Shown: in pieces, positions 32,676-52,138 of the stretch | How positions within the stretch are numbered: position 1 is the first letter of the stretch | How the letters are laid out: each line of letters starts with the position of its first letter | NCBI GenBank assembly: GCA_030407315.1 | Contig: JALQPE010001681.1 | Coordinates: forward strand, 1 to 64,000 | Reading direction: 5' to 3' | DNA from: Asparagopsis taxiformis | Lineage: Eukaryota > Rhodophyta > Florideophyceae > Bonnemaisoniales > Bonnemaisoniaceae | DNA: 64,000 nt | The notes under the pieces: model-generated | The model's database searches: none | What the model saw: the letters and a program-made list of their open reading frames with translations, nothing else | Told to the model about the DNA's origin: nothing | Translations under genes and position numbers: made by a program

Positions 32676-33060
32676 CACTACGGTGTTGAGAATGAAAACA
32701 GACAGTAAATTTACTGTCTGAGACAGTAAAAATTACTGTCTGGCCAAGACAGTGCGCGGAGACAGTAAAATTTACTGTCTGGAAATTTCAGAATACTGCT
32801 GCAGCAGTAAACTGGCACGAAATCTGGACAGTACCAAAAACAGTAAAATTTACTGTCCAGAACAGTAAATTTTACTGTCCGGAAGTGTTGCCGCCAGACA
32901 GTATGTGCAGACAGTACATTTTACTGTCTGAGACAATACATTGTACTGTATTACTGCACTGTCTGGGGAAATCTGTAGACAGTAGTGTAGATAGCAAATT
33001 GTATTGTCTGCGGGTAGTACCGTGCATTGTTTGACAACACTGTCTGGTGGAGTGGACTTA
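32676..33060. repeat. Left terminal inverted repeat and subterminal ACAGT array
   Basis: CACTACGGTGTTGA followed by about a dozen ACAGTAAATTTACTGT-like words in both orientations. These would be candidate binding sites for the element's DNA-binding proteins. Confidence 0.8.
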
Positions 33061-33581
33061 GAGGAAATATGGAGCATAGTGTTGGTGTGAAGGTAAATAT
33101 TGGAATGGTGTGTGGTATACGACTATATTAATTGTGATGGTGCTTTACAGATAGTTGGGTGCGGGGAAGCTAGATGCTGAATAGGAAGTTGTAGAAAGGA
33201 AGATTGGGAGAACAGAACATATCTGGTTTGTCTCACCGTAAGGAGAGAATGTACAGAGTAGCTATAATATGTTGAGTTTAGCATTTCAAATTATACCTAT
33301 CTATCTTTGCATTGAAAGTGTCTAGTAGGAGACGTCAGTCTGGTAGCGAGGTGTGGTATGCACAGGACGTGGGTGGTGGCAAAGGAAAGAATACGCACCA
33401 TCCACCACTAAATTATGAAAAATAAACGTTACGGAGCACTGGGAAGCATTATTATTATGTAGAGTAGACCAGGATGGATGCATCCACTGAAATGATATTT
33501 GCTACAACACTGCTGTACTAAGCGTGACATCCTTCCTTCAAAGCAATTCTCCTTTTAGCAAACTCCAATTGCAAGGTCAAG
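33061..33581. promoter_or_regulatory. Upstream region of the coiled-coil gene
   Basis: About 500 bases between the subterminal array and the ATG at 33582. There is a TATA-like CTATAATATG near 33260. No reading frame of interest. Confidence 0.3.
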
Positions 33582-35108
33582 ATGAATCCCGAAACCTCCG
33601 TAAGCATCGCCGCATTTTCCGAAATAACGCGTGAGGGCTTTTCGAACATCACTGCAGAGTTGAAAGCCCTGAGTGATAAAATGGATGCCGTCGAGAAGAG
33701 CACCATTCAATTACGCGAGACTCTCGGAAATGTCGCCAAGACTGTCTCCATGCTAAACACCGATATGCAGGAGGTCAAGAGCATCGTCGATGGGCTTCTG
33801 AGCCAGGGACAAGGACATCCGAAGAAGATCGCCTCCGAGAAGGACAGGGAACGTCTCCGCATTGCGCAGGACGCGGAGAAATCGTTCACGTTCGAAATGG
33901 TGTGTGCTGTGCTGTGTGCTGTTGTTCCAACGTACACGAAGGCAATGGTGGATAAGAGGGATAGGCATTTCAACGGATGCCAGCTAATCAATACGCTGAT
34001 GTTCGCCAGGCAGAGCAATGAGCGAAAGGATGTGTTCAATAGGACGCTTGCCGGCCGGAACCACATTGAATTGCGCTGCCAAGTTGTGACCTCTTTAATC
34101 AAGAATACGTGTCAAAACAATTCTTTCAGACAGGGAGGAGACCGTTCCAGCTCCAATGGAACGTCGGAAGGTATCGAACGGTGGAGGGCGCGGGGGTATG
34201 TGACTACCGGGACCATTGAGGAGACAATTCGCGGAACGGACTCTGCTCGCATGGATGGAATGCATGGGACGTCCGAGGGAAGTGATGGGGCCGCTCGAAA
34301 GCAGAAGCGAAGAAAGGTTGGTGACAATGGGCCGTTGCACAGAAAGGAGGTAGGCATCACTGTGACGAAATCGGCACTGACGGCAGTGACCGGGTTTATG
34401 AACAAGTCCAGAGATCATGTGCGAAACCGGTTCATCCGAGATCTTGGATTCTTTCTATACAGTGGGTTTCAAGGTTCAGTCCGAATGGAGCATCATTTGC
34501 ACGACGGTGGGCTGGACATTGAGTCAGTTCCAAGTCTGTACTCGGCGCAGAGGAAAATGAATGCAGCGGAGCGTGCAGCAATGGATGACAAGAATATGAA
34601 GATTCTTCGCGACTTCATTGCAGTGCGAAAAGAAATGCTATTCAAAGTCGAGTACGAAGTTCAAATAATTGGAGAACCGGACAAGAGGTTTTTGACTAGG
34701 AGGATCAATTTAGTAGAGGTTGCACTGAACTTTGCAGTCGCCTACATGCAATGTTCTGATAAGAACATGTTCCTGCGACGTTCAGAATACTCCTTGCAAT
34801 TCATCTACATACTTGCATACGGGTTCCGAACGATTTTGAAATTTCAAAGTGGAACAGAGGTGGAAGGAGCGCAAATCCGGGAAATCAATGAAGCAGTGAA
34901 ACTGCTTCTTCCCGGGGAGCGGGTGAGTAGTCGGTTCATGAATGAGGAGGTTTTGACTATATCGCGTGATAGATATGAAGAACTGAATGTAGACGATGGG
35001 GGGGAATCAGTGCTGGAGGAGAGCTTCAGGTCTATGGAAGAGGACGGAGGAGATGCAGAATATGTGAAGGTATTCGTCGATGATGAAATCGAGAATGAAG
35101 GGGAGTAG
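33582..35108 (+). CDS. Coiled-coil, nuclear-type protein of unknown function carried by the CACTA-like element
   Basis: ATG at 33582 (AAGATGAAT context), 508 residues. Residues about 5-80 form a heptad-like coiled coil (AELKALSDKMDAVEKS and onwards). About 95-190 is a Cys-containing, mixed helical region. A basic cluster KQKRRKV near 240 could be a nuclear-localisation signal. After it, a region with RDHVRNRFIRDLGFF is followed by a helical middle and a strongly acidic tail. It is the first gene inside the left terminus. By position it could act like the DNA-binding accessory protein (TNPA type) of CACTA elements, but sequence gives no proof. The 761-residue protein in E3 has a similar plan: basic region, coiled coil, and a segment reading RNARDRLFGSLGY. 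Confidence 0.75.
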   Translation: MNPETSVSIAAFSEITREGFSNITAELKALSDKMDAVEKSTIQLRETLGNVAKTVSMLNTDMQEVKSIVDGLLSQGQGHPKKIASEKDRERLRIAQDAEKSFTFEMVCAVLCAVVPTYTKAMVDKRDRHFNGCQLINTLMFARQSNERKDVFNRTLAGRNHIELRCQVVTSLIKNTCQNNSFRQGGDRSSSNGTSEGIERWRARGYVTTGTIEETIRGTDSARMDGMHGTSEGSDGAARKQKRRKVGDNGPLHRKEVGITVTKSALTAVTGFMNKSRDHVRNRFIRDLGFFLYSGFQGSVRMEHHLHDGGLDIESVPSLYSAQRKMNAAERAAMDDKNMKILRDFIAVRKEMLFKVEYEVQIIGEPDKRFLTRRINLVEVALNFAVAYMQCSDKNMFLRRSEYSLQFIYILAYGFRTILKFQSGTEVEGAQIREINEAVKLLLPGERVSSRFMNEEVLTISRDRYEELNVDDGGESVLEESFRSMEEDGGDAEYVKVFVDDEIENEGE

Positions 35109-35383
35109 TATCGGATGAAACCAGTTTCGGTGTAGTAGACGAAGAATGAAGAAATAAAATTTCTGTTGAGTTGAATTTTGTAATAGATGGAAGTAGATAG
35201 ATGCGAGACATCAGGAAACCAGTCAGACGATAGTGTCAAGTCGAAGGAAAAGCGCAGAGACAGGTAGTGGAATAGTCGAAGTAAGAAGGGGCGAGGGTAT
35301 CCGTCTTTACTAGAAATTGATGGCCACAGGAGCTCTAGAATGGAATACCCAGGAACAGGATAACTACGGATAGGTGTGCTTTA

Positions 35384-35736
35384 TCATTTTTGCTCCGGAC
35401 TGCAGGTGGCAGGTGGAGGAGAGGGTGGGTGGGTAGTGTCTGAATCCGCATTGAAGCCAAGACGAGAGATAGCCTCATAGCCAATGTCTTCAAGCTCCTG
35501 GCATATAGTAGTACCACTGAAAATACAGCAAGGTAAGCGTAGATGTAGTGTAGCAAACGTCTCTGCGGTTGATAGAGGCTGGAAAGTGCTGTAACAAGCT
35601 CGGCGCTGAATACGTCTCCACAGTAACGAAAACGTTGCTCCATAAGTAACAGTAGCCTTATCACGTAGGTGGAAAGAGTCCACGATTGGACTACAAAGAT
35701 ACGCTTAGAGATGTTACGGGGCCCAATAAATTGCAT
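35384..35736 (-). pseudogene. Unrecognised frameshifted fragment
   Basis: An ATG at 35736 opens MQFIGPRNISKRIFVVQS. After that the more protein-like continuation lies in another frame (WRRIQRRACYS to ELEDIGYEAISRLGF, ending near 35384). The two halves suggest one short gene broken by an indel, or an exon remnant. It converges on the 33582-35108 gene. I do not recognise it. Confidence 0.25.
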
Positions 35737-35956
35737 GGAAAAATATTTTGAGTATTACTTTAGTATTACATTGATTATTGAGCTAACAGTCGATGTAGTT
35801 ATCTTGTAAAGGTTCGGACAGGGGTGGAAAGGAAACAGCCACCGAAGTGCTACCACTCGCTGACACTTTGTTTTAAACAACCAACTTCTGCTTTGCGCCA
35901 CCCTGGTCAAGCAGCAACCAACTATCCCTTTCTTATAAACTCTACCTTTGTTCGCC

Positions 35957-38900
35957 ATGGAAGGAACGTTCCACAATCACGGTGAAAAGCACGACGGATG
36001 GGTGTTCATCGACCCCAATCAAGTCAGCAAATTCGTATCGATTCGCGATGTTGATGCAAGTCATGTGGAAGCGCTCATGGAGAGCATTCGCAACAGCGGT
36101 TATGACACAGCTCATCCCGTGACTGGCAGGTTTCGAGAAGGCGTTCTGGAGATATTGGATGGAGCGCACCGCTGCATGGCAATTGTACGTGGAATGAAGA
36201 AGGGCGTCTTTCCTCCTGGCGTTACGATTCCTATGCGAGAAGAGTCTATCGTGGCGGACACCAACAGCAGTACTGCTGTTGTGCTGGACCGTGTGAGAGC
36301 GACGACATCCAACGACATTGCAGGCCTGCAAAGGCGCATGATGTTTGTTGAGTATCTGATGATCGCCGTTGATCTCAGAGACGAGTACTGGGTCCAAAAC
36401 GGAAAGGACAAGTACGCTCATATTTCGTCTGTGAGGATGGCCGATGTGTTGGGCTGGATCAAATCCTGCGATACAAGCGGCCAAATTGCTTCAAGCCTGA
36501 GTGGTAAACCGCAGTACAGCTCATGCATGTCTATCCTGGCTGTGCTTCGGCCGTATCACCGAGCAGAAGATTCGAGTTCGATTGATTTGCGTCTGTGGCA
36601 AATGTTTTGTCATGCATGGGGACTCAATGCAGAGATGGGTGATTCTCCGAGGATGGTTGAGTTTCCGAAACAGGTGGGGGTGACTAGTTCTCGTGCCGTC
36701 GAAATGTTTGGCAAGACACCCCGCGGAGAATTGTCCTCTCCACTGAACCGCGAACTGCTTTCGAGCAGGTACTTTCTAGACGGCGCTACATCCGACATGC
36801 AAGATTCTTTGCAGGCTAGCCAGAAGCGGTTCAGGAGGCTGATGGTTATGATGTGCCAGTGTATCTTGGCTATTCGCAGTAAGGAGATGGGCAGTGCGCC
36901 ATCTAGGCGGGCCAGAGCCACATCCGGGGCCATTGGTGGTGGTGGAATGGTTGGAATTGCAACATCCAGTGCGCAAGCCAACGAGCTTGGATTTGTTGTC
37001 GACCGTGTGTTAGCTGCGTGGGATACCGGGGCAAGAGTGTTGGGGTATGAGGATGTTGAATCGATGTGCTGGCCGTTCATGGTATTCGATCCTGCGAGCC
37101 TTTGCTTCAGGTCACTCCCGAATCGGTCTGATGGCTGCGCGGTCGAGGAGCATCGGAAAAACCTGACCATTGTCCCGAAAACTGTAGACAGTGAAAACGG
37201 GTTCTGTGCCGACCTTCCAGTGGCTGTGGATGCAAGGCTGCGATCATTGACAAGCGCCTTCCTGCTGTCGATACGCCAATGTGTCACTGAGGTGAATGTG
37301 TTCGCCGAGCGTGGTCAGCTGATGCAGAGACTTCGAGCCTTGCTTTTCGACACTCCTGACAAGTTCGGATTGAACTCGTTCATGCGAGCCAAGTTGAACA
37401 CGTCTCATGCCCTGGATGGTCAGAGGAGGCTGAAGGCTTGGTTATTGCGAACCCGAGAGCAACGAAAGCTTCCTCTGACCATGGATGAGTTGCACAGTCT
37501 TGAGGATACGCCCGAGCCTGGCATCCTTGAAGGTGTACCTGCGCAGATGGAAATATCCGCAGCAGTGCCAAACAATGGCAGCGAGGATATAGAAGAGGAT
37601 AGTCTGGAGCCACAGAGGAAGAAGGCTAGGCTGGAGCGCGGTGGTGGAGAGGACGATAATGCGGCGGTTGCTAGCGAAACAGCAACAAGAGAAGGTGCGG
37701 CCGAGGATGACGCTATGGAGGTTGACACTGTATCGCCTACAGAAGCACCGCTCGTTGACGTCGGAAAGGAATCCAAGCCGGAATATGTCACCAAGCTGGA
37801 AGCTGTGATGGGGCGTTACATTCACACTGTGAATTGTGACGCTACTGATGTAGCCAAAGAGGTGGAGGACAAAATTAGTTTCCTGGAAGATGGTGTGTTG
37901 GAGGACAGTGTTCAGCTTGTGCTCACTGATCCTCCATTCAACACGAGGCGGGAAGGCGGCAGAGAAAACTCGGAGTACGATATTCTGGAGCCGGAAGAGT
38001 TGGCGAGTGTTGCGTGTGAAATAGTTCGAGTTCTTCGGCCTGGCGGTCATGCTCTAATCTATTCCAGCGTGCGCCAACTCGTGGCATGGATGGATGCAAT
38101 CAGAAATGCCGAGCCTGGCAAGATGATTGTGGACAGTGTTCCAGTCGTGCTATCTCGCCGACCACACAGCTTTACGTCCAATCCATCGACGAAAACGTGC
38201 ACACTTCATAATATGCACGATTTCGTTATCCATGCGTATAAGCGGGGGAAGGGTATGGCTGCATATGATATGGTGGATTACAGGTTGCACAATCCGGACA
38301 TATCGAGGCACCCTGGGTTCACCAACGCGATTGACAACGTTCCGAGGTTGTCGGCTGGTGAAGCTCAATACGATGGGCAGAACAACCGACTGCGCCATGA
38401 GCAGAAGGCGTTGACCACTCTTCGTGAGCTTCTGGAACGATTTTCGAAGCAGAACGATATCGTGATGGATTTCTTCTCGGGAACATACAGCACAGCCATA
38501 GCGTGTATGACGTTGAGGGATGGTACGTATCGTCGGTTCATTGGGTGTGAGAAGGAAAAAAGGTGCCACGATGCATCGCAGGAGTCGATACTGCATGCTT
38601 TCGTCAGTGAGGTGAAAGCCGGGCGATATGGGGGGATCTTGCAGCGTGAGGTGGAGAGTATTCTTGGGGACGAGTCGGTACCGGTCACAGGAAAAGCTCC
38701 AAGGCTTCGTCAGAAGCACATCTCAGATGCACCAGAAGGTTTGCCTGCTGTGACAGCATTGCCGAACCACCTGCTTGTGTTCGTTGCGTCAATGAAGAAG
38801 GACGGGTCGATGCTTCACAGATTGAGCGGGGTGCCTATGGACCAGTGGCCGGCCGAGGACATGCACTCGTTTTGGAGCATAGACCCGGACGCGATTCTGG

Positions 38901-39424
38901 CTGCTGATGCCGCATTCTACGGTGTCTATGTTTCGCAATCGGAGGTAAGAGGTGGTGGGTTTGGCGTATTCGCGGCGAAGAAACTGAAGAAGGGGACGGT
39001 CATTGGCTGGTACAACGGGACGATTTTCTATGCGAAGATTCGAGACTCGGAACCGCAGAGATCAGTGATGTACGGCCCGGAAGGATTTGGGTGCACAGGA
39101 GAGAGGTTCCAGGACTACAACATGGAATTGGAAACCACGTACATAGGGAGGGGTGCACCTGTTCGGAAGGTCTGGCTCGTTCCAGCGGTCTATAATTGTA
39201 CCAGCTACCTCAATGATTGTCGGGTCATTGACGGAACGGAGAAAGCGACCGAGGTGAGTCGAACACAGTCAGCCGAGTTTCGACAAGGCGATGCCATAGA
39301 CAAACCGGACTTTGCTTCGAATATCAAGAATCCCCATGCTGTCAAGGTCGTTCTGACCAGAGACGTTGAAGCTGATGAGGAGATATTTGCTGACTATGGT
39401 AGAAAATATTGGCCAGCTAACTGA
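35957..39424 (+). CDS. Fusion of ParB-like domain, beta-class amino DNA methyltransferase and SET domain
   Basis: I place the start at the ATG at 35957 (CGCCATGG); the frame upstream opens only from a TTG. The product is 1155 residues. Residues about 25-130 match the ParB/Srx-like fold, with EILDGAHRCMAI (Asp68, His71, Arg72) as the signature. About 560-620 is acidic and basic linker. The methyltransferase has TDPPFNTR (Asp658-Phe661), then VLRPGGHALI, and a later FxGxG-like DFFSGTYSTA (Asp838). Motif IV before motif I is the beta-class order of N4-cytosine/N6-adenine enzymes. ParB-methylase fusions are familiar in bacteria and phages. Residues about 985-1152 are a SET domain, with GGGFGVFA, WYNGT, SYLNDCR and the closing ADYG...YW. 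So one protein may methylate both DNA and a protein such as a histone. Activity is inferred. Confidence 0.88.
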   Translation: MEGTFHNHGEKHDGWVFIDPNQVSKFVSIRDVDASHVEALMESIRNSGYDTAHPVTGRFREGVLEILDGAHRCMAIVRGMKKGVFPPGVTIPMREESIVADTNSSTAVVLDRVRATTSNDIAGLQRRMMFVEYLMIAVDLRDEYWVQNGKDKYAHISSVRMADVLGWIKSCDTSGQIASSLSGKPQYSSCMSILAVLRPYHRAEDSSSIDLRLWQMFCHAWGLNAEMGDSPRMVEFPKQVGVTSSRAVEMFGKTPRGELSSPLNRELLSSRYFLDGATSDMQDSLQASQKRFRRLMVMMCQCILAIRSKEMGSAPSRRARATSGAIGGGGMVGIATSSAQANELGFVVDRVLAAWDTGARVLGYEDVESMCWPFMVFDPASLCFRSLPNRSDGCAVEEHRKNLTIVPKTVDSENGFCADLPVAVDARLRSLTSAFLLSIRQCVTEVNVFAERGQLMQRLRALLFDTPDKFGLNSFMRAKLNTSHALDGQRRLKAWLLRTREQRKLPLTMDELHSLEDTPEPGILEGVPAQMEISAAVPNNGSEDIEEDSLEPQRKKARLERGGGEDDNAAVASETATREGAAEDDAMEVDTVSPTEAPLVDVGKESKPEYVTKLEAVMGRYIHTVNCDATDVAKEVEDKISFLEDGVLEDSVQLVLTDPPFNTRREGGRENSEYDILEPEELASVACEIVRVLRPGGHALIYSSVRQLVAWMDAIRNAEPGKMIVDSVPVVLSRRPHSFTSNPSTKTCTLHNMHDFVIHAYKRGKGMAAYDMVDYRLHNPDISRHPGFTNAIDNVPRLSAGEAQYDGQNNRLRHEQKALTTLRELLERFSKQNDIVMDFFSGTYSTAIACMTLRDGTYRRFIGCEKEKRCHDASQESILHAFVSEVKAGRYGGILQREVESILGDESVPVTGKAPRLRQKHISDAPEGLPAVTALPNHLLVFVASMKKDGSMLHRLSGVPMDQWPAEDMHSFWSIDPDAILAADAAFYGVYVSQSEVRGGGFGVFAAKKLKKGTVIGWYNGTIFYAKIRDSEPQRSVMYGPEGFGCTGERFQDYNMELETTYIGRGAPVRKVWLVPAVYNCTSYLNDCRVIDGTEKATEVSRTQSAEFRQGDAIDKPDFASNIKNPHAVKVVLTRDVEADEEIFADYGRKYWPAN

Positions 39425-39699: not shown

Positions 39700-40048
39700 A
39701 TTACAGTGCGGGCCGTTTACCGGGGATGCTGACAGCAAAGTCATCGTTACGATGACTTTGCTGTAAGAAAACAAATCATTACAGCAGCCATGATTTCTTT
39801 ACCGGGTAAAAAAATTGTGGCCGCTGTAATGAAACGTTTTCTTACAGCAAAGTCATCGTAACGATGACTTTGCTGTAAGAAAGCAAATCATTACAGCGGC
39901 CACAATTTTTTACCCGGTAAAATTTCTTGCTGATTTTTTACCCGGTAAAAAATTCTTCGGCCACTGCAAGGAAACGGTTCCTTACAGCAAAGTCATCGTA
40001 ACGATGACTTTGCTGTAAAGAACCCTGGTAAACGGCTTCGGCTGTAAG
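39700..40048. repeat. Palindromic repeat element M1
   Basis: It is bounded by TTACAG...CCGTTTACC on the left and the inverse GGTAAACGG...CTGTAAG on the right. Inside are three copies of a long palindrome centred on GTCATCGTAACGATGAC with TTACAGCAAA arms, and several TTTTACCGGGTAAAA palindromes. It looks like a fold-back or MITE-type element. Confidence 0.75.
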
Positions 40049-40126
40049 CAGCAGGGAGTTTCGTCCTTCTCCCATCTTGGTAAAGGTACCTTTACCAAGA
40101 TCGGAGAAGGAAGAAACTCCCTGCTG
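40049..40126. repeat. 78-bp near-perfect hairpin
   Basis: The centre is the perfect palindrome TGGTAAAGGTACCTTTACCA. The arms extend through CTTCTCC/GGAGAAG to CAGCAGGGAG/CTCCCTGCTG. Confidence 0.85.
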
Positions 40127-40580
40127 TCTCACATGAGAAGCGAAGTGTGAAGTAGGGAACATCACGAGAGGATGGTTTGGACGGCTGTTGGTCGCAAAAT
40201 CTACTCCTTGTGCCGTGAGCCACAGCGACCATATGGTACCTGTGCCTCACGGCATAAAATATATATTTAACCCGCCCGGGCGGGAACCGGCGCCGGTTCC
40301 GGTGCACTATAGTCGTCAATAAGTAGGACTCTAGCTACTCACTATACAACTATAATCGTAAGGTAGGATAGCCTAAGATCGTAGTACGGAAGAGACGGAT
40401 GGGAGGATGTGTGTAGAGGAAAATTAAGGCGGCAGTACGAGTAGCCTATCGTGGTAATAGACGAGTATTTCATTGCGAGAGGGGGCGTGAGGGGGGAAAC
40501 GAAAGGCGTCAGTCGTCACCAGAGAGGCTGGGATGCTGAAGACGGAGTAGAGAAATGGGGGAGAGGGTGCAGCCAGACTG

Positions 40581-41041
40581 CTTACAGCTTTGGCAGTTCC
40601 GGCGGGGTGCTGACAGCAAAGTCATCGTTACGATGACTTTGCTGTAAGAAAACAAATCATTACAGCAGCCATGATTTCTTTACCGGGTAAAAAAATTGTG
40701 GCCGCTGTAATGAAACGTTTTCTTACAGCAAAGTCATCGTAACGATGACTTTGCTGTAAGAAAGCAAATCATTACAGCGGCCACAATTTTTTACCCGGTA
40801 AAATTTCTTGCTGATTTTTTACCCGGTAAAAAATTCTTCGGCCACTGCAAGGAAACGGTTCCTTACAGCAAAGTCATCGTTACGATGACTTTGCTGTAAG
40901 AAAGCAAATCATTACAGCGGCCACAATTTTTTTACCCGGTAAAGAAATCGTGGCTGCTGTAATGATTTGTTTTCTTACAGCAAAGTCATCGTAACGATGA
41001 CTTTGCTGTAAGGAACCCTGGTAAACGGCTTCGGCTGTAAG
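40581..41041. repeat. Palindromic repeat element M2
   Basis: Same family as M1, with four copies of the GTCATCG(T/A)(T/A)ACGATGAC palindrome. The first two-thirds repeat M1 almost exactly and an extra unit is inserted before the right end. Confidence 0.75.
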
Positions 41042-41516
41042 CAGCAGGGAGTTTCGTCCTTCTCTCATCTTTGTAAAGGTAAGAAGCGAAGTTTGAAGTC
41101 GGGTAAATTGCTCAGCAAAGGTCTGTACGGCTGTGAGCAGCTCTCAGGAGTATTTTACCTCACGTGGTCTCTGTTCAGGTTATACCCTGTATATATATAG
41201 GTAGCCTAGTGTAGGTGGGAAGATAGACGAAAATTCTACAAATAATTTATCACAGTGACGGCTCTCGTAGTCGAAATCTGCGCGTTGTCAAGGGTTGAAA
41301 CTAGTCTCCCCCTACGGCCTAGCTAGTAAAATCATATAACGTTGTAGACTAATATTAAAAAGTAGCAAGCAATCTGCTGAGTAGCACTAAACTATGAGAT
41401 GAAGGACAGATGTATAGATGAGAACTGAAAAATGGGCTAAGGTAACAATGTTGAGATGAGAAAGACAGAACTTTATAGCAGGGAACAGTAGTATAGGTTT
41501 TAATACTTCTGATATG

Positions 41517-44500
41517 CTATCTATTGCTCCTATCGTACTTGTAATATTCGACGGTGTGGATGTGGTCCGTGAGGACGTCCTTCTCCGTCTTCAAGTGAAT
41601 GTGGCCGCGCGTGGGCAGGCCATAGACTAGCTTTTCGCCCGCAGGAATATCTCCGCGCTTGAAGCCGACCCCGTAATGGTAAAGGTCACCGCGACCAACC
41701 AATACCGAATAGGGTGGCACATACAGCCTATGAATGGGAACCTTCCACATATCGGCGTCCGGATTGGCCAGGCATACATGACTATAAGGGGCAACTACTA
41801 TAGAGAACCCATCGGCTCCGCTCGACATCATGAAATATGATGGAGACTTGGTAGGACTTCCAACACTATTCGTCGTTACCTTGAAGTCCGTGTGCCCATC
41901 CTGGTCCGCAGCCCCATCTGCTGTAAGAAGCAGCCGCAATCCTGTCTTCGGGAAGAAGACAGGATCCTCACCCTCCATTCCCAGCTTGAGAAACTCCGCA
42001 CAAACACCAAGAGCAAGCTCTGCCACCAACTTGTTCTTATACATATCCAAATTTTCCTCCTCCAACTTGTCGCACAACTCACGCCGCGGCAGAGTGAGGC
42101 GCCCACGACCACCATCTATGCGGTCCTTCGCATCACCCACGTTGTGGATGAACTGCCACGGCGAAGGATCGAAGCTGGGCTTTGCGAAAGCTGGCGGCTC
42201 GTCCTGTGGCTCCCTGTCGTCATCGTTAGAATCAGACTGCTGGGAGGGTTTTTCAACCTCCTCAACCAGCGGGAACTGCCTAGCGAAGTGACCGAACAGC
42301 TCATGCGTCGCACTCCCAGCCGTGGACGATTCCAACAAGCGTTCCAAAACAATAACCCCCAAGTTTTCCAGCAACGCCCGCTTCACCGCAAAGTACTGTT
42401 CCACCACCGTATCCTCAGCACCCGGCGATGCAGCTACCTGGAATGCTGCCGCCCTCATTTCCGCCCGAACCGTCTCCACCGTCGTACTTTCCATATAGTA
42501 CTTCATCCGGCTGCCAGACGCAATTGCGCTGGGGAGAACGGCGGCCACATTCTCATCGACGATACTGTCGGGAATGGGATTCTCCTGGGCGTCGTCGAAC
42601 TGGAGAACCGGCTCCCGAGAGCGACCTCGGGAAGCCGACTTGGATTTCTTTGACGACGACTTTGATGAAGTCTCACCGAGCATTCTCTTTTTGGTAGAAG
42701 GCTCGGGCGTCGCAGAAGGCGCATCCAAGTTACGCTTCCCGAGGATGGAGTTTTCACCCGCATCCTCGGGGGCGCTCTCCAGCTCGACGACCTCCACAGC
42801 ACCACCCGCCGTTCCACCACGACCGGAACGACTCGCTTGCAGGCGGGTACTCCTTCTGGGCATCACTTTCCTCCCAGAAGTTTCCACTCCGGGCGGTGCA
42901 GAATCACTGACTTCAATGACATCCCCGTCAGGATCTGCACCGCCCTTCGCACTGCTGCCCTCGACCACATTCTCGGGAGTAGGGCCCTCCGTCGAAATCC
43001 TCGCAACCGTCTTCTGTCCAACCCCACCGGATGGTGAAGGGACGAAACTGTCATCGCTGGAGCTTCCCGAACTGCTAGCAGATGCAGAACGGGAAGCTTC
43101 GACAGCGGGGGCCGGAGCAGCAGGGTGCTGCTCGGCAGCCGGAGTCGCAGGCTCAGGCTGCGAAGCCGGTGAGACCTGCTCCTGCGCGGCTTGGACAGGA
43201 CGGTTGGGGGTACCAGTCCCGGCGTGGGAAACTGGACCAGACTGTTCACTGCCAGCCTGGGGACCACGCGCAGTCGGCTTGACCGGGGTCACCGCAGGGG
43301 AGGATGCAGACACGGCAGGGGTAGTGAGAGGAACAGGGGCAACCTCGGAATTACTGGAAGATTCCAGTTGAGGTGGTGGGGGCAAAGGGATGGAGGATGA
43401 AGGGATGGGCAAGGAATTGGAAGAGGAAGGGATGGGGGCATCATCACCACATGTGGCTGGGAGCGCAGCATGTGGGATGTCTGGGTACATCGCGTGAAAG
43501 CGTTTCCGCATAATCATGTCGCGGTACCCAGTGACGCACAGGAGCATTTTCCTGGCGTCCTTCCCGAAGACAGACTTCTTACGGGGAAAAATGTTCTCCG
43601 ACTTGTAACCATCGGGGGGGCCTTCCTTGGGACGGAAGTCTGCCCAACACCCCTTCTTGGGGACCATCTGAGCAAGAACTTCGACAACGCGCGAGCGAAT
43701 GTCGAAGCTCTTGCTCGGGTCACCCACGCTGGGAATTGAGCCATCCAGCATCCGCAACACATCCGACACGTTCCAGTACTCGGCCACCTCCTTCACGTAC
43801 CCGAAGATTTCCAACAAACCAGCAATCCATTCCTGCCCAATGGTGCCAACCGAGTACGGTTTCAGCCCGGCCGACCGACGGCTACAAGTGTAGCGCGCCG
43901 TCATCTCCAGGATGAAACACTTCTGCACATCCGGAGCACTCCTGAACGACCCATTGAACAACAAGTTCACCGTACAACCAGCCAGATCCTCGGTCGAAGA
44001 GAACTGCACGAACTCCGGCCTGTTCGGAATACTCGACCAGTACTTGAAAGCAGGGCTTTCAATGGTCTTGAACCCTCGCGCGATCGAGACGTAGCGCATG
44101 AGCTGTCTCGGACGAATCCAGCTCAGCGCTTTCCGTTCTTTGATGTATTGAACGGTCGGCTCGATCTTCTTCTTTCCCAGGCGGTGGATATTGATGAACT
44201 CCATCACAGAGCACACATTGTCAGCAACTGTTACCTCGCTGACATTGTGGGTGTGGAAGTTCATCAGCCGTGAAAGCGGGAGTACTTCTTCGGAGCAGAA
44301 GACATCCCGGCCAAGCCGAGTCGGTGGGAGGAGAAAGTCGACTGGAATAGTTCCAAAGCGACGGTAGATGTCAGACTTGACAAACTCCTCCCACTCTGGA
44401 CTGTCCTTCGCAGGAGCAGGTCCAGCCGACTCGAGAATGGCCTTCAACGCGGTCACTCGGTGAGATCCATCGACGTATTGCAGTCGGACTTTTGCATTGG

Positions 44501-45164
44501 AATCAATCACCTCGCAGACGGACACGCGTGAAGCAATCACGGAAAATCCCTGAGTGAGAAACGTTTTCTTCAACTCATCAACGCGATGCGGCCTGACCAC
44601 CCTGGACACGACTGCCGGAGGAGAAACATCCAGAGGGGAAATGAAGACTGGAATGTTTCGGCAGCTCTCCGGACTTATGTCGTAGTCCACATCCACCGGG
44701 ATGGGCACTGTGCCAGGGTAGGCCAGCCTGGTGCTGCGGAGAGGCTTGTTCGGTACGATGTCACGAGCGTTGTGATCATCGACCTTCTCCGCATCCTCTG
44801 CCAAGTCGCTGCCGGACGCGATGATCATGTCCGGAGCAGGCGAACTAGGCAGAGGAGCACCAGATCCCTCGACGGCTGGCGCCGCTTCGGCAGATTGAGC
44901 CGGAAGCGGAGTTGCGGGAACGCCAGCGTCGATTGTCGGGACAACCGCGGGATCGGAAGCGGAAGGGGGGGAGGGGACGGGCTTAGGTGCTGGGCTGAGC
45001 TGGGTCAGCGCTGCAGCAGCTTCGCAAACGTCCATGGGGACAGGGGGGGCCAGAGAAGGAGAATGAGAGGGAGAAGGAGAGGGAGAAGGAGTGGGAGAAT
45101 CGTTGTCACGGCGGCTGGCAGAGCGCACCTGGCGGTCGAAAGCGTTGGGGGATTGTTGAGCCAT
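41517..45164 (-). CDS. ParB-like domain protein with C-terminal Fe(II)/2OG-dioxygenase-like domain
   Basis: I use the ATG at 45164 (MAQQSPNAFDRQ); the upstream extension starts only at a TTG. 1215 residues. A Ser/Pro-rich N-terminus is followed by a ParB/Srx-like region (about 165-260) with YVDGSHRVTAL (Asp232), the same signature as in the 35957 gene. The middle (about 560-900) is low-complexity Pro/Ser/Ala/Glu with a basic patch (SSKKSKSASRGRSREP), probably disordered and nuclear. The C-terminus (about 1040-1215) has the double-stranded beta-helix pattern: His1091-x-Asp1093 (GHTDF), SYFMMSSGADGF, GDLYHYG (His1163), and Arg1186 in RGHIHL, which would bind iron and 2-oxoglutarate. Candidate substrates are modified DNA bases, as in TET/JBP proteins, but that is inference. 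Repeats M2 and M3 bracket the gene. Confidence 0.85.
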   Translation of the reverse strand: MAQQSPNAFDRQVRSASRRDNDSPTPSPSPSPSHSPSLAPPVPMDVCEAAAALTQLSPAPKPVPSPPSASDPAVVPTIDAGVPATPLPAQSAEAAPAVEGSGAPLPSSPAPDMIIASGSDLAEDAEKVDDHNARDIVPNKPLRSTRLAYPGTVPIPVDVDYDISPESCRNIPVFISPLDVSPPAVVSRVVRPHRVDELKKTFLTQGFSVIASRVSVCEVIDSNAKVRLQYVDGSHRVTALKAILESAGPAPAKDSPEWEEFVKSDIYRRFGTIPVDFLLPPTRLGRDVFCSEEVLPLSRLMNFHTHNVSEVTVADNVCSVMEFINIHRLGKKKIEPTVQYIKERKALSWIRPRQLMRYVSIARGFKTIESPAFKYWSSIPNRPEFVQFSSTEDLAGCTVNLLFNGSFRSAPDVQKCFILEMTARYTCSRRSAGLKPYSVGTIGQEWIAGLLEIFGYVKEVAEYWNVSDVLRMLDGSIPSVGDPSKSFDIRSRVVEVLAQMVPKKGCWADFRPKEGPPDGYKSENIFPRKKSVFGKDARKMLLCVTGYRDMIMRKRFHAMYPDIPHAALPATCGDDAPIPSSSNSLPIPSSSIPLPPPPQLESSSNSEVAPVPLTTPAVSASSPAVTPVKPTARGPQAGSEQSGPVSHAGTGTPNRPVQAAQEQVSPASQPEPATPAAEQHPAAPAPAVEASRSASASSSGSSSDDSFVPSPSGGVGQKTVARISTEGPTPENVVEGSSAKGGADPDGDVIEVSDSAPPGVETSGRKVMPRRSTRLQASRSGRGGTAGGAVEVVELESAPEDAGENSILGKRNLDAPSATPEPSTKKRMLGETSSKSSSKKSKSASRGRSREPVLQFDDAQENPIPDSIVDENVAAVLPSAIASGSRMKYYMESTTVETVRAEMRAAAFQVAASPGAEDTVVEQYFAVKRALLENLGVIVLERLLESSTAGSATHELFGHFARQFPLVEEVEKPSQQSDSNDDDREPQDEPPAFAKPSFDPSPWQFIHNVGDAKDRIDGGRGRLTLPRRELCDKLEEENLDMYKNKLVAELALGVCAEFLKLGMEGEDPVFFPKTGLRLLLTADGAADQDGHTDFKVTTNSVGSPTKSPSYFMMSSGADGFSIVVAPYSHVCLANPDADMWKVPIHRLYVPPYSVLVGRGDLYHYGVGFKRGDIPAGEKLVYGLPTRGHIHLKTEKDVLTDHIHTVEYYKYDRSNR

Positions 45165-45369
45165 TGCTTTGGTGAAGAAATGAGGAAAGAAGAGTGAAAG
45201 ATTGAGAAATAGAGAAGAAGATCTGAACGACAAGCTGTTTTGCTGCGTAAGCTGAGTAAGATAGGCGAAACTTAGAGATCTGACATATTCCTATTAGTAT
45301 ACACCCTGGTAATGATATTCAGCGGTTGACCAATCCGAACCTTCCACATCACTTTTCGTTGTACGACAA

Positions 45370-45692
45370 TTACAGCTCAGGCAGTTTACCAAGGATCCTT
45401 ACAGCAAAGCCATCGTTACGATGACTTTGCTGTAAGGAAACGTTTCATTACAGAGGCCAGGAATTTTTTTACCGGGTAAAGAAATCATGGCCACTGTAAT
45501 GTTTTGTTTCCTGACAGCAAAGTCATCGTTACGATGACTTTGCTGTAAGAAAACGTTTTCATTACAGCGACCAGGAATTTTTTTACCGGGTAAAGAAATC
45601 ATGGCCACTGTAATGAAACCTTTCCTTACAGCAAAGTCATCGTAACGATGACTTTGCTGTAAGCATCCCTGGTAAACTGCTTCATCTGTAAG
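45370..45692. repeat. Palindromic repeat element M3
   Basis: It lies about 200 bp upstream of the start of the ParB-dioxygenase gene. It is bounded by TTACAG...CAGTTTACCA and its inverse TGGTAAACTG...CTGTAAG, and has three internal long palindromes. Confidence 0.75.
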
Positions 45693-46230
45693 CCGTTGGT
45701 CTCAACCCTCGCTCTCGTTTCTGTTGTCCTCCATCATCTCCACCTACCTTCCCCCTACACACCACCTCTCTAATGTCACTCTGCCCACCCTTTGGTGCAT
45801 GAAATATTTTCTTACCACTGCCATAGTCTACACATACTGCTGCCTTCATACTTCTGCATGCCTACCCTTCAATCTTTCTTCCATCTTTCTCTACCGTGCT
45901 AGGCTTAGACCATGCTCTGTGCACATCTGACTTACTTAATATCATTGTATAGTTAGAAACTAGAATAATAATTACATCACTAGAGTACACTGCAAATGTT
46001 AGTAACTATGGTTGGTGTGGTACACAACACCCTACCTCCTTCATGAGTAAACTTTGCGCACAGAACCGTTCAATACCAGGTAGTGCAGCCAGCGCAAACC
46101 AGGCTTGCACGACGCAGAGTGCTCCCCAGAGCCGTCAACAGTCGTCCAAACCATCGTTGTACGATGTTCCCGGCTCCACACTTCCCTTCTCACCCTTCCC
46201 AGGGTGGGAGACGGACGAAACTCCCAACCG
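45693..46230. other. Gene-free stretch with an inverted copy of the M1-adjacent sequence
   Basis: The part at about 46070-46230 is the reverse complement of about 40050-40200 (GTCGTCCAAACCATCG against CGATGGTTTGGACGAC-like words). Nothing else is recognisable. Confidence 0.5.
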
Positions 46231-46516
46231 CTTACAGCCGAAGCCGTTTACCCGGGATGCTTACAGCAAAGTCATCGTTACGATGACTTTGCTGTAAGGA
46301 AAGGTTTGATTACAGTGGTGAGAAAATTTTACCGGGTAAAAAAATCAGCAAGAATTTTTTACCCGGTAAAAAATTGTGGCCGCTGTAATGATTTGATTTC
46401 TTACAGCAAAGTCATCGTTACGATGACTTTGCTGTAAGAAATCAAATCATTACAGCAAAGTCATCGTAACGATGACTTTGCTGTCAGCACCCCAGCGAAA
46501 CTGCATCATCTGTAAG
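46231..46516. repeat. Palindromic repeat element M4
   Basis: It begins CTTACAGCCGAAGCCGTTTA and ends with the inverted CTGTAAG. Three long palindromes are inside. Confidence 0.75.
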
Positions 46517-46675: not shown

Positions 46676-49564
46676 TCATCGTTTACTTGAAGGCGGCCTT
46701 GATGCCTGCCATAGAATGCTATTAAGAACTAATTTCATCAGATATCTAAACGCTCCCAGTAGTTGACATTGAAGGGAGGCTGTAGCAACTTCTCCCTGGA
46801 AGTTCGCAGTGATAGATGGGACCGGATAGGATGCTGGTACCTCACCGAAGAACGACCCTCCGTGATACACGTCCGTTCGGCATACAAGCAGGGAATACGG
46901 TGGGATGCGCACGTTCGTCACTGGCACGCGGTACTTGTCTTTCGCTGGATGACTTAGGCACACATGGCTGAACTTGGCGATACGAATGATGAACCCATCC
47001 GCACCAGCAGCCATCATGAAATATGATGGCGAGTTGAGAGGACCAGTTCCAGTTCCCTCACGGACGGGAACATCGGTATGCATAAGTTGCTCCTGACTAC
47101 CTTCTGCGGTCAAAATCAGACGAAGACCCGTTTCTGGAAAGACCACCGCTTCTTCTCTTCCAAACCCGAGCTTCAGGTTCTCCGCACAAATCGCCTTACC
47201 TAGCTCCAGAATCAGCTTGTTCCTGTACTGCCGCGCGCTTTCTTGCTCAAGGTCATCGCAGATGCTTTTCCGGTCCGTCTTGAATACACCAGTGCTGTCT
47301 TTCGGTCGAAGTGGTTTCCACGGGTTCTTCTGACTTGCACTTGAGCCACTTGTAGTACCTTGGAATGTGCTGGCCATCTGTGTGAATAACTCCTGCACTG
47401 CTTCCAAGGAAGTGCTCAGGACATGAAATGGTAAATCTTCCCCTTCTTCTGCAGCCAGTCCGAGAGTGCGAAGCTGGGTTTCTGTGGCATCCTTACGTGT
47501 CGATGCATTCCGATACTTGCTCCTGGCATGCGTCGATGTTTGCCCGTTCACTACCGAAGTGTATGCATTCTTCGTGCCACCAGTACTGCTCAGGTCATAT
47601 TTGCGGAAACTGCAGATGTGGCACGGAGAGTTTGATGTGTGTCCAAGAACATCCAGGGTATGTGAAACTGCAGGATAGTCTCCAATGCTCCCCACTGGGT
47701 CTAGAAATACCACAATATCTTCTCCCTCTGCATTTTTCGTTGGGAAACCCTCTGTGCTTCCTCGCACTATATCTTGAACGATATATCGCAATACACAATT
47801 TGTGGACACTCCCGGAGGTGGCAAACCAATCACTCGAACCGCTTGGTAGCTTCCCCTTTTCCGAGGCGGTAGATTGAGAGGTAACATATAGCATCCACCA
47901 AAACTTCCCTTCCTGCTTGTGAATGGTTCAAAGTCATCCGTGTAAAGGAGAAATCGGTAAACAAAGTAGTTTCGACCATCCTCCAGCTTTCCCCAACATG
48001 GTGCATCTTCTCGCGGAGACGCTGGGTGCCATTGCGACCTGTGGTCTCCGAAACCATCCGAGAACACCCCTGAAACACGAATTTCTTCATAGTTGGGGCT
48101 TCCTAGTCTATCGGGCGGGTTTCTGGCTTCAGCAAAGCTCGCGCCCGGTGAAAAGCAAAGTAACATGGTGGATGCTTCTCCGACCTGCTCTTTCAAATAC
48201 CTGTTCACCAATACGACGTGTGGAACAATATCACCCTCTTCCATTCCAATTGGTAATAGAACGGTTATCACGTCCCCAGCTCGTGTTACTTTTCCCTTGG
48301 CTCCTGCTCCGATTACACATTGCGATATCGCTCGCAGAGCATGCTGCCTCTCCCATTCCAATAGATGTGACATTCGCGGCTGCAGATATTTTTCGACATG
48401 CACATCATGCTCACCGTCGTGTCGAGCCTCATAGGTAACTATGGTCCTAGCATGAAGTTCCCACAACGACGTAACCGCCACTCTTCTCCTCTTCGGTTTC
48501 CCACCATCTCTGTCATTCTTCCTGAACCCTTTTGCTCTTTCGATGACGGCAACCTGACGAGCTCCTGGATGACATCGGATTCGAATTGCTGTTCCATCAG
48601 GTACATAAATGTGCTTCAAACCCTTTTTCCCATCGCTGTCAATGGGAACAACTGCTGTGCGAACGAATGGGTCGCTCAAAACACCCCTCCTGCACTTTGC
48701 AATGAACGAATCTTCAATGCTGCACTCTGCGGTTGATTTTTCTCCTTCCGAGCTTCGATTGTTCGCATCACTGCGGAATGCTTCAAAGATTGGTCGAGTC
48801 TGGACATCTTTCAGAGCCCATGTGCTTGGGAGTACAATACGAACTTTCGCCATTCCTCCACAATTGTCTCTGTCATCTGTTGTTCCACGGGTTCCTACTC
48901 CATCTCGATGCTGTGCAGCTCTTGCTCCGCTCTTTCGAAGGTCCATCGGAAACTCGATGTCACAGCTCTTTGCATAGCAGTGTTTCCTCAAGAATGGTAG
49001 TATCTTCTGTCGCATCACAGAGTCCGACGGGACGTGCTCACTTGGATCTCTGCGGAAATTCATTCCGAACAGGGTACCTTCATAGTGGGCTCTTGTCATT
49101 CTTTGAGTTCCACTCAGCTGAAGAGCCCCATACATCGCAGGCCATTGTAGTAATGCCTTGAAATCACCACATGCTTCATCCCCAGCATTTCGGTCTATCG
49201 GGCCTCCAGTTGAAATGGAATCAGAACCTCGTCCGGTTGCTTCTTCCGATTCCATTAGCGTGCTCGATGCTACGTAGATGTCACTTCCAGCTTCATCGTT
49301 GTTGCTGTACACATCAATACAACCTTCTATTGTGTCACCCATAGGGATTGGGGACTCCAATAGGTCATCTGTGGTACACTCACGTCGTAGCTCATCACCT
49401 CTCGGGATTTCTTTGTTCATGCAGGCTGCATCACTGCTGCGGATTTCTCCCTGCAGTTTCCCAGGAAGCTGTTTACTGGGACTGGCCACATTGAGTGAAT
49501 CGAATCTCGCCTTTGTCCTACGACTTGTGGTTTTCTTTCGAATAGGAGTCCGTCTCGGAGCCAT
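46676..49564 (-). pseudogene. DDE transposase (CACTA/Plavaka type) truncated and fused to a 2OG-dioxygenase-like domain, frameshifted at the end
   Basis: ATG at 49564, 962 codons, starting with a very basic MAPRRTPIRKKTTSRRTKAR. The middle has the front half of a transposase: LLYTDDFEPF (Asp543-544), GGCYMLPLN, GDYPAVSHTL (Asp629) and CHIC (about 647). The rear half with the third acidic residue is missing. From about 770 it continues as the same dioxygenase-like domain as in the 41517-45164 gene (ETGLRLILTAEG, His829-Thr-Asp831, DVYHGG with His901). The last 55 or so codons are out of frame. In another frame, about 46738-46825, a segment reading RSHLSLRTSREK and ending LDI lines up with RGHIHL...YYKYDRSNR of the intact gene. 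A small indel therefore destroyed the C-terminus, unless an intron or assembly error explains it. Confidence 0.8.
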
Positions 49565-51360
49565 CTTGATGTTTTTGTTCTTTTCTTCTTCGCTCAGTTT
49601 TGTTGCATAGAATACAACTCTAAACTTCTATGACATGACTACTATCTCAATACAGTACTACTACTTTTAACCGTTACGAAACCTTTCCAGGCTTTCATTC
49701 GATCCAATGAACTGGTTCACCACAATGCTTTGCCCTATGCTCATTGCTTTATGCACATTGATTGCTATTTCATCCGGACTCAACATCGTTTTGCTATCTT
49801 GTATCGCATCCCCTAACCACAAACCCAGCCAAGATGTATCCATTTCCGGAAAACGGCCGTTTATTTCGCAGTGATGCTCTAGGCACTAATACTGAATCTG
49901 ATTTTCTCATACACGTACTTCCTACTCGTATACTCTACCATTTTCGGCCCTATTTACAAGTTGAAAGCACAATCTCTCGTTGAATCGTACTCGGTGTGAT
50001 ATCTTAAATTAGCATAAATTTATATATTGCAATGCAGATTCACTGCTCGCTTGCAACATGAAAATTATAAAATTTCTCCCACACTGCTGTTTCCTAGCCG
50101 CCCACATCCACGTGGCCCGCTTTGACTGCCTGCCAAGTGTGCTCAGAGCATGCAATGACGTCATCGATATATACCGTCCAAATCATCACTGGAAGCGCGG
50201 ACTCCTCGTCCAGGAAAGTGCGCCATTTTTCCTACTCTTCACCTCCCCCTTTCCAGTAGGCCCCATATGCTAGTGTTTTTCCTATATTTCTGTAGTGATG
50301 ACGTCATTATAGACTAGAGAAGGCGGTAGAAGATACAATAATTTTGCGCCTGTTCTGCCAGGTCATGTGCTTCAAAGCGTAATTCGCACCCTAGGTATCG
50401 TTTTTCTGGGCCACCCATCGCACCGCTCCGTTTCAAATTCATCACTCTATTGTTCTCCTACACGTCATTTCCGCCCGCAGAGTGCTACTTAAACAACAGA
50501 TTCTGGAGATCCCTGTTTCCATCTTCATATCCGTCGGAAACAAAGCAACAACTCTGGCTGTGGAAGCAGTACAGATCATCTATACTGCTTCCAAAGCGTA
50601 AGTTGTAGATCATCAATACTGCTTCCAAAGCCAAAGTTGTTGCTTTGTCTCCGACGGATATAAACCATGATGGTACGTTTCCACAACTCACGCCACTAAC
50701 CCAGTTTTCTATTCGTTTTCTCTTTCTCAGGTTTCCAGTCGGTGAGTGTTCCACTTCTACTTTCATTTATCTTTCTCTCTTACCACTTCTCCACTACTTT
50801 TCTTTTCTGCCTGTGAGTACATATCTCAATTTGGGATGCAATGGTATTTGTTAAGGTACGTTAGTCTCCTAATCACCATCAATTTCCCTCTCCAATTCAA
50901 CGTCACTAACTTGTTTCCTTTCTCTACATCATTTTTTCTTCTTCTCTTCATTTCCTAGCTTATTCATGCAGCTCAATCAGTTGATAGATTTCTAGACTTT
51001 TCTAGTAGTTTTAGTTTTACTCGTCGGAATAGTGTTAGTTGTAGTAGCATTTTTAACATAGGGATTGTTTATTCGCAATGTAGCCTGCGCAAATAAACAA
51101 ATCCAAAGTGAAGCTTCCCATATCGCACCCTCTTAGATTGCTACCTATCCTACCGCGTATACCTCTCGCTAGCTCATAGTCACTACGAAATAAAAATTCC
51201 TAGCCGTACTATTCTGTCCATTCCCATATGAATACCGTCCATGCCCCATCCTCATAGCGCTAGAACTGCCTTCCTCTACCCCAGAAAGATGCCCACGACA
51301 GCGTGACGCTCCATCTCATCCACCACTCCCAGACACCGAATTTTACTATATCAGGACACT
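49565..51360. other. Gene-free stretch upstream of the transposase fusion
   Basis: About 1.8 kb of AT-rich sequence. It must contain the promoter of the 49564 gene. The only structure I see is a hairpin at 50527-50661. Confidence 0.5.
50527..50661. repeat. 135-bp fold-back hairpin
   Basis: Outer arms ATATCCGTCGGA/TCCGACGGATAT continue through ACAAAGCAACAACT and TGGAAGCAGTA with few mismatches. A further short repeat (ACTGCTTCCAAAGC) lies in the loop. It may be a small MITE or a structured RNA. Confidence 0.75.
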
Positions 51361-51787
51361 ACTTTTACTGTCTCCAGGTGCTGCCCAGGGCAGCACGAAA
51401 TACTGTCTCCAGGTGCTGCCCAGGGCAGCACGAAATACTGTCTCCAGGTGCTGCCCAGGGCAGCACGAAATACTGTCTACAGGTGCTGCCCAGGGCAGCA
51501 CAAAGTACTGTCTACAGGTGCTGCCCAGGGCAGCACAAAGTACTGTCTACAGGTGCTGCCCAGGGCAGCACAAAGTACTGTCTACAGGTACTGCCCAGGG
51601 CAGCACGAAATACTGTCTACAGGTACTGCCCAGGGCAGCACGAAATACTGTCTACAGGTATTGCCCAGGACAGTGAAAATCACTGTCTCCAGGTATTGCC
51701 CAGGACAGTGAAAATCACTGTCTCCAGGTACTGCCCAGGACAGTGAAAATCACTGTCTCCAGGTACTGCCCAGGACAGTGCACCGTG
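51361..51787. repeat. 35-bp tandem array, about 12 copies, right subterminal region
   Basis: Units read ACTGTCT(C/A)CAGGTGCTGCCC then AGGGCAGCACGAAAT. Each unit contains the inverted pair CTGCCC/GGGCAG. Variants drift gradually from GTGCTGCCC to GTATTGCCC along the array. Because 35 is not divisible by three and the units lack stops, three overlapping frames stay open; none is a gene. Confidence 0.9.
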
Positions 51788-52138
51788 TTGGTTCCATCTA
51801 TTGTCCCAGGCAGCGTATTTCACTATCCGGCCATGTTGCCTAGGCCAATACACAACACTATCCGCCAACACTGCCCAGTACAGTAAATTACATCATATCC
51901 AACTATTGAATAAATCATTAATTTTTACTGTCTCCATTCACTGCCTCAGACAGTACTGTGAGACAGTGTTTTTTACTGTCTGCAGACAGTGTTCCGTACT
52001 GTCTGCCAGACAGTGCAAATCACTGTCTCCAAGTGTGGCATTAATTTTCATTTGCCGCATAGTGATTTTTACTGTCTCAGACAGTAAAAATCACTGTCTC
52101 GCAGTACTGTCTGAGGCCCCCTTTTCAACACCGTAGTG
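51788..52138. repeat. Right subterminal ACAGT array and terminal inverted repeat
   Basis: ACAGT/ACTGT words in both orientations lead to TCAACACCGTAGTG at 52125-52138, the inverse of the left terminus. Confidence 0.8.

Follow-up and report, generated by a model that had tools for sequence, protein, structure and literature searches.

The Spm transposon controls its own epigenetic state when its TnpA protein acts through the subterminal repeats, and DNA methylases are known from bdelloid rotifers (an N4C methyltransferase), from Copia elements with cytosine methyltransferases and from phages, some of whose methyltransferases have a ParB-like fusion architecture. Among DNA transposons, a plant Vandal (MuDR) element encodes an anti-silencing protein, the HarbingerS and MuDR elements of Phytophthora carry a SET gene and the TET+ elements of fungi include EnSpm, ESTA, Plavaka and KDZ members (sections of PMC12730594). 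Enlarged En/Spm (CACTA) families of 16-20 kb, with 4-5 open reading frames (ORFs) and not 1-2, have been described in Chondrus crispus (Kojima, Bao and Jurka 2013, as cited in part of PMC6431247). Here we describe a CACTA-like element of about 19.5 kb at positions 32676 to 52138 in the first 64,000 bases of contig C1561 from Asparagopsis taxiformis (the window, that is, the whole stretch of 64,000 bases analyzed) and its relatives in the genome scanned (141,494,207 bases in 3156 contigs), where all copy numbers are lower bounds as only the best candidates were scored. This genome gave 13 matches to the phycobilisome linker family, every one above the cut-off, which identifies it as that of a red alga. 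The family is real, young, present in high copy number and equipped with an unusual, putatively epigenetic cargo. The window unit itself would be an internally deleted, non-autonomous derivative of a 27.2-kb cut-and-paste transposon that controls its own silencing, or the timing of its movement, through this cargo, a joint reading that we hold with evenly balanced confidence.

The Vandal protein and Spm TnpA are cases of the element-encoded epigenetic self-control proposed here, but they are not enzymes of the kind predicted for its ORF2 and ORF3. Likewise, the rotifer and Copia methyltransferases are foreign DNA methylases in eukaryotes, yet they are other enzymes in other hosts and element classes. 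The Chondrus families are alike in red algal host, size, 4-5 ORFs and CACTA-type label, a comparison made by description only (part of PMC6431247). The fungal TET+ transposons are also cut-and-paste elements of the CMCT kind with an epigenetic enzyme thought to fight silencing; however, as described in sections of PMC12730594, they carry one TET/JBP-type 5-methylcytosine (5mC) dioxygenase and no DNA methylase or SET, whereas the seaweed element shows no TET/JBP profile match and combines a writer with a putative eraser. The Phytophthora elements are DNA transposons with a SET histone methyltransferase too, but they belong to other superfamilies and no methylase-SET fusion is mentioned in that section of PMC12730594. 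The single parts thus have precedents (fungal TET, oomycete SET and the Chondrus 4-5-ORF EnSpm elements). Apparently new here, within the open-licence PMC literature, is the methylase-SET protein in one chain alongside ParB-like/2-oxoglutarate (2OG)-like genes; no transposon with ParB, DNA methylase and SET was found among the titles and abstract starts of that literature, and Repbase Reports may hold an earlier description.

The features of the unit are listed below; C44 is the contig that holds the 27.2-kb form, and P0003 and P0004 are two genes of that form.

32676..32689, plus strand: left terminal inverted repeat CACTACGGTGTTGA, exact, of the left end type and followed by GAATGAAAAC.
32700..33060, no strand: left subterminal array of ACAGT/ACTGT words, partly palindromic, assessed by word count against shuffles.
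33582..35108, plus strand: ORF1, 508 amino acids (aa), with weak coiled-coil-like matches at best.
35685..35690, no strand: junction of a 1298-bp deletion relative to C44, in which the 453-aa ORF P0004 was lost, with about 5 shared bases.
35948..39424, plus strand: ORF2, 1158 aa from TTG (1155 aa from the ATG at 35957), with a ParB-like N-terminus, an N6/N4 DNA methylase and SET.
36002..36202, plus strand: ParB-like stretch of ORF2 with DGAHR, residues about 19-85 (phrog_1033, E 0.0025).
37910..38581, plus strand: N6_N4_Mtase of ORF2, residues 655-878, with DPPF ahead of DFFSGT (PF01555, E 2.3e-16, above the Pfam cut-off).
38957..39400, plus strand: SET of ORF2, residues 1004-1151 (PF00856, E 4.5e-6, 27.5 bits against a cut-off of 22.4).
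39701..41161, no strand: internal repeats, mutually inverted and inverted relative to 45370-46456.
41517..45233, minus strand: ORF3, 1238 aa, with a ParB-like N-terminus (YVDGSHR) and a putative 2OG-dioxygenase-like C-terminus.
41520..42086, minus strand: 2OG-like region of ORF3, residues about 1050-1238, with conserved HTD, YH and R, a motif common to P0003.
45370..46456, no strand: second block of internal inverted repeats.
46676..49564, minus strand: ORF4, 962 aa, a fusion in which the first 725 or so transposase residues run in frame into a P0003 tail, with the conserved H and E of the transposase missing.
47385..47395, no strand: junction of a 5439-bp deletion relative to C44, source of the ORF4 fusion.
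51366..52115, no strand: right subterminal array, rich in ACAGT/ACTGT, with 11.8 copies of a 35-bp unit.
52125..52138, minus strand: right terminal inverted repeat CACTACGGTGTTGA, exact, of the right end type, with AAAGGGGGCC next on its own strand.

An earlier note on this DNA, made from the window alone, had described exact inverted termini, matched subterminal ACAGT arrays and four genes between them, and all of these were recovered, the genes as four long ORFs. Genome-wide, the terminal 14-mer occurs in 1431 exact copies (722 + 709), against 0 + 0 for the backwards-read pattern used as a control. When two mismatches were allowed, 6 of 100 shuffles of the window also gave two terminus matches, so the window alone is weak evidence for the termini and it is the genome count that settles them. 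The first 400 bp of the unit contain 19 ACAGT/ACTGT words and the last 800 bp contain 30, far above 1000 single-base shuffles (mean 0.89 and maximum 5, and mean 1.5 and maximum 6, respectively). The match between the two ends is exact over the 14-mer but stops there, as the sequences diverge directly after it into two end types, GAATGAAA for left ends and AAAGGGGG-like for right ends (34 loci read, some overlapping). The flanks vary between copies, with the exception of one constant flank at five right-type ends, which lies inside a rearranged derivative. This derivative of 6.3-6.5 kb (C60, C4, C121 and C35; L009, L010, L015 and L012) has two ends that are both of the right type and in most cases point the same way, and it contains parts of the promoter regions of ORF3 and the transposase; the same-direction ends found 6.3-6.5 kb from each other belong to it. 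Two elements of 14,445 bp show the same ends with 2-bp duplications (C19:12359-26803 and C104:62353-76797), and no ORF of 250 aa was present in the 10 kb read from the start of the C104 copy. At C10:78700-85700 (L016) a right-type end was located within the 3' part of an ORF3 copy, as a nested insertion or a break.

Repeated copies with the same gene set and a short target duplication, which the earlier note had named as support for a transposon, were both found. In C1856 the two termini lie 19,428 bp apart and are flanked by an AA duplication, with ORF1, ORF3 and ORF4 at the window offsets; the methylase gene of this copy was not among the PF01555 matches listed (best 150 of 2605 candidates). 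All four window genes occur in the same order and orientation in C83, C308, C334 and C64. The offset between ORF1 and the methylase is 4328 in these four and in the window alike, and that between ORF1 and ORF4 is 15,933, 15,981, 15,101 and 15,843, respectively, and 15,982 in the window. In at least 35 cases a methylase gene accompanies ORF1 in the expected direction within 8 kb, at exactly 5630 bp in 23 of them (the C44 form) and at exactly 4328 bp in 4 (the window form).

Flanks were compared for ten facing end pairs, with C10 as an eleventh; the first C64 pair, which starts two bases from the contig end, and C83 and C308, which have no left flank, were left unscored for duplication. Direct duplications of 2 bp were found in 6 of the 10 pairs (p 1e-5; 6 of 11 counting C10), namely AA in C1856, TG in C334, TA in C3027, AG in C19, GA in C104 and GC in C74. 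They were absent from the second C64 pair, C1577, C44, the window and C10, and no 3-bp duplication was observed at any of the ten. Concerning the window copy, the left flank is a copia gag region with 16 genomic matches, 14 of which (one being the window itself) have the exact last 25 bases; all 13 others continue with TATTTTCGG (GCCA joined to TATTTTC), the empty site. The right flank belongs to another repeat (best 40 of 1407 candidate matches scored), whose empty site, TTTACA joined to TGGAGG, was found in all 3 copies fetched. Since the left and right target sites differ, the window copy carries halves of two target sites and is the product of recombination between copies or of an assembly join, and one clean insertion is ruled out.

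These flanks also speak for the view that the unit is an artefact made of the unrelated ends of two smaller elements, which the earlier note had named as grounds for giving up its reading. That view is right about the window ends, which come from two insertion sites, but the C1856 unit has both ends and a 2-bp duplication, and the four-gene block recurs in four more contigs. At the level of the family the artefact is therefore refuted, mixed ends being a matter of the window copy alone, and for the window unit we consider it extremely improbable.

The C44 element extends over 27.2 kb between one left and one right end and contains, in order, ORF1, the 453-aa gene (P0004), the methylase-SET gene, ORF3, a 1086-aa gene (P0003) and a 1267-aa transposase gene (P0002). 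Two stretches of it, of 1298 and 5439 bp, are absent from the window form, and about 5 and 2 bases, respectively, are shared at their junctions. The second deletion accounts for ORF4, which the earlier note had taken for a transposase-2OG protein. This interpretation did not hold, as the two parts are separate genes in C44 and the fusion sits at the 5439-bp deletion, so a purposeful transposase-dioxygenase was rejected. The ORF4 tail is 97% identical to P0003 across 187 residues and diverges from it immediately past the last conserved H. On the transposase side, the D and C(2)C blocks are still present in ORF4. The H and E blocks, found past residue 900 in P0002, are missing; because the conserved H and E are lost, ORF4 is probably inactive as a transposase. 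Among the best 47 of 5032 candidates, 21 genomic matches of ORF4 were full length, 3 covered residues 1-912 and 1 covered 1-759; the other 22 of the 47 scored covered 1-727 or 1-735 alone, and 18 of these 22 lie in a 1288-codon frame.

Neither ORF4 nor P0002 has a Pfam match. A protein search with P0002 returned 24 proteins of several origins, P0002 among them, at identities of 30-100%, and none of the 24 members scanned matched a transposase family in Pfam. Their alignment revealed conserved D, D, C(2)C (CHxC), H and E blocks, from which we infer the acidic residues that may be catalytic. Of the H(3-4)H that precedes the E in the CMCT description, one H is invariant (KPN-V/M-H-R) and a second is located 8 residues on in most sequences, not all. 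A Plavaka transposase encoded elsewhere in the window aligned with the P0002 profile (hhalign E 4.7e-4, probability 33%) over the second D, CHxC and a DPY...P.H.L stretch; PF18759 (Plavaka) gave no match for P0002 or the 24 family members. No convincing match was found among solved structures for the transposase or the dioxygenase-like tail, and no relatives of the transposase profile in viral contigs. These features agree with the CMCT description, and P0002 is predicted to be a DDE-type transposase within the broad CACTA/Plavaka (CMCT) group. The narrower CACTA label of the earlier note stands in part: the termini begin with CACTA and short subterminal repeats are present, but the En/Spm 3-bp target duplication and the Pfam family of TnpD-like transposases are missing. 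Membership in En/Spm is not established because the duplications are of 2 bp and no transposase family was matched; other CMCT lineages have target duplications of 2-5 bp (section of PMC12730594). A second transposase family (P0007), which shares 52% identity with P0002 across the searched region, occurs at C764:10788-14486 and at least 37 other places, and all 38 copies scored are full length (best 38 of 2103 candidates).

The claim of a ParB-methyltransferase-SET protein was borne out by ORF2, whose methylase and SET domains pass their Pfam cut-offs, with weaker support for the ParB-like part. The PF01555 match and the DPP(Y/F) before the S-adenosylmethionine motif point to a beta-class N6/N4 methyltransferase; by eye, the usual NHxC motif of SET is not evident. 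Matches to NCBIfam adenine-specific models were far under their cut-offs. The best PHROG match of ORF2 is family 67 of phage DNA methyltransferases with ParB-like parts, which, unlike ORF2, have no SET and no transposon; the same family is the best match of L073 and L076, two members of sister ParB-like/methylase families found in this genome (L073 in C2077, L076 in C609 and L083 in C1591). L073 and L076 show DG-x-HR and DPPY, but their C-termini differ from that of ORF2 and have no SET match; by eye, the C-termini of L076 and the C1591 family contain cysteine-rich, zinc-finger-like stretches. The DG-x-HR motif is common to ORF2, ORF3, P0003, L073 and L076, with phrog_1033 also reaching E 0.018 in P0003 and 0.21 in L076, and the ParB-like stretch of ORF2 aligned with ORF3/P0003 at hhalign E 0.003 (probability 10%). 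In the genome, PF01555 gave at least 150 matches (best 150 of 2605 candidates), every one above the cut-off. At least 78 have the score of the window family, 50 of those 78 in frames of at least 1135 codons, and ParB-like methylase families form at least five score classes with many copies each among the matches listed. No relatives of ORF2 were found in viral contigs, and among 5.8 billion proteins ORF2 and P0003 had one near-identical match each (8000 candidates sharing most words scored).

The ParB-2OG protein that had been proposed for ORF3 is backed by motifs and not by Pfam: the DG-x-HR and HxD...H...R motifs are present, the latter conserved between ORF3 and P0003, but no TET/JBP or other 2OG Pfam profile matched either protein, whole or as a C-terminal piece, with E values up to 10 allowed. 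The two proteins are 34% identical in the N-terminal and 41% in the C-terminal region, and the C-terminus is, as a motif-level call, a putative 2OG oxygenase. Hence, of the three genes out of four said to encode DNA- or chromatin-modifying domains, ORF2 is confirmed by Pfam whereas ORF3 and ORF4 have no Pfam match.

All genomic copies scored of ORF1 (85 of 85; best 85 of 1546 candidates) and ORF3 (37 of 37; best 37 of 7215) are full length without stops. Between the window and C44, ORF1 shows 5 synonymous and 3 non-synonymous differences (synonymous excess p 0.017), ORF2 9 and 9 (p 0.011) and ORF3, over 915 residues in frame, 45 and 48 (p 2.5e-7). These excesses bear on the idea that the genes were captured, are useless to the element and spread passively by recent amplification. 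The copies are very similar, so youth could account for the intact frames; the 14,445-bp copies keep both ends, with no 250-aa ORF in the part read; and the C19/C104-type and other derivatives (13/13) are not needed to account for spread by ends alone. Nevertheless, the synonymous excess in three genes and the recurrence of such genes across several diverged families make passive cargo very unlikely in our view. Among the sister methylases, the ratios of non-synonymous to synonymous divergence per site (pN/pS) were 0.75 for L071/L073, 0.56 for L074/L078 and 0.24 for L076/L078, so that constraint is not clear everywhere. The C44 ORF3 has a pS of 0.069, against 0.004-0.015 in neighbouring genes, which suggests that segments may have been exchanged between elements.

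According to the reading we favor, the transposase of the 27.2-kb form would move the window-type derivative in trans through the shared ends. Methylase, SET and dioxygenase would be guided to the DNA of the element by the ParB-like modules, perhaps with the subterminal ACAGT arrays as their target. Element copies would receive an adenine (or N4-cytosine) mark from the methylase and a histone mark from SET. A mark would be removed or edited by the dioxygenase-like proteins, and the net effect would be an element that governs its own silencing or the moment of its movement. N6-methyladenine (6mA) is disputed as a working eukaryotic mark. No PF00145 match or candidate for a host C5 DNA methyltransferase was found in the genome, with a control that matched in 10 of 14 genomes, those named being all prokaryotes; this would favor 6mA or N4-methylcytosine (4mC) over 5mC. 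The missing match is not proof of absence, since the published A. taxiformis assembly has 81.6% complete BUSCOs (part of PMC12115072) and DNA methylation is reported in the red alga Gracilariopsis chorda (review, part of PMC8566409). The strongest version, a complete self-run circuit in which a one-chain writer of DNA and histone methylation and two dioxygenase erasers are aimed by ParB-like modules at the subterminal arrays and act on 6mA/4mC, appears doubtful.

Several points weigh against the reading of a self-controlling derivative. The ParB-like stretches match no Pfam ParB family and are weakly supported, with no PHROG ParB profile matching ORF3 or L073; the 2OG region of ORF3/P0003 has no support from Pfam, PHROG, PDB or NCBIfam. 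Residues 1-725 of ORF4 show no synonymous excess (2 synonymous and 6 non-synonymous, p 0.59), and the selection test compares two copies, window and C44. The 27.2-kb form was read in C44, which is not a fully intact copy; its ORF3 frame is broken, so that C44 gives the full structure but no proven working copy, and its ends show no 2-bp duplication (TA/AA).

Dam methylation gates the transposition of IS10 and Tn5 to a phase of replication, and the cargo could serve transposition in a similar manner, with methylation of the ends gating the transposase to one replication phase and the ParB-like proteins organizing or pairing the ends. The dense short arrays at both ends, the adenine-methylase-like domain akin to CcrM and phage enzymes and the ParB-like modules common to three element proteins are consistent with such a role, which nonetheless leaves SET and the dioxygenase-like proteins unexplained; we regard it as unlikely. 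The cargo could also act mainly on others, marking or unmarking host genes or rival transposons, to the advantage of the host or of the element, with self-control as a secondary effect. This would agree with the ParB-like methylase families, which fall into at least five score classes and differ in their C-terminal modules, and in fungi enzymes borne by transposons are believed to have effects outside the element that encodes them (section of PMC12730594), but each element family keeps its own version, which suggests own use and leaves this explanation quite improbable.

The neighbourhood of the unit in the window includes the following elements.

13369-16203: Ty3-type pol ORF.
18090-22769: Ty3-type ORF with chromodomain.
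27985-32675: copia element, cut by the left terminus.
57451-60492, plus strand: second DNA transposase gene, of Plavaka type (PF18759, E 3.3e-24), 5 kb to the right of the 19.5-kb unit.
60570-62855, strand opposite to the Plavaka-type gene: 761-aa ORF, function unassigned.

Tandem repeat modules of 43 bp and 24 bp are identical at 517-1083 and 55051-55450, and are perhaps the long terminal repeats or the ends of one nested element family.

The likely host is a seaweed studied for lowering cattle methane, and the published assembly of A. taxiformis lineage 6 (142.47 Mb, 3308 contigs) consists of 33.48% DNA transposons (part of PMC12115072). In a figure legend of the same paper, the contig of the bromoform (mbb) cluster includes two DNA methyltransferases, one labelled site-specific and the other adenine-specific, which may be of the transposon-borne kind seen in this element. 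Many N6/N4-type methylase genes are open in this young, high-copy family, and as the assembly is probably of PacBio origin (part of PMC12115072, which names BioProject PRJNA809757), the mark could be looked for in existing data, provided that the library had not been amplified. If the favored reading is true, this would be a transposon that combines a writer with a putative eraser, and would represent a route for phage-type DNA methylases into chromatin, fused to SET or zinc-finger-like modules.

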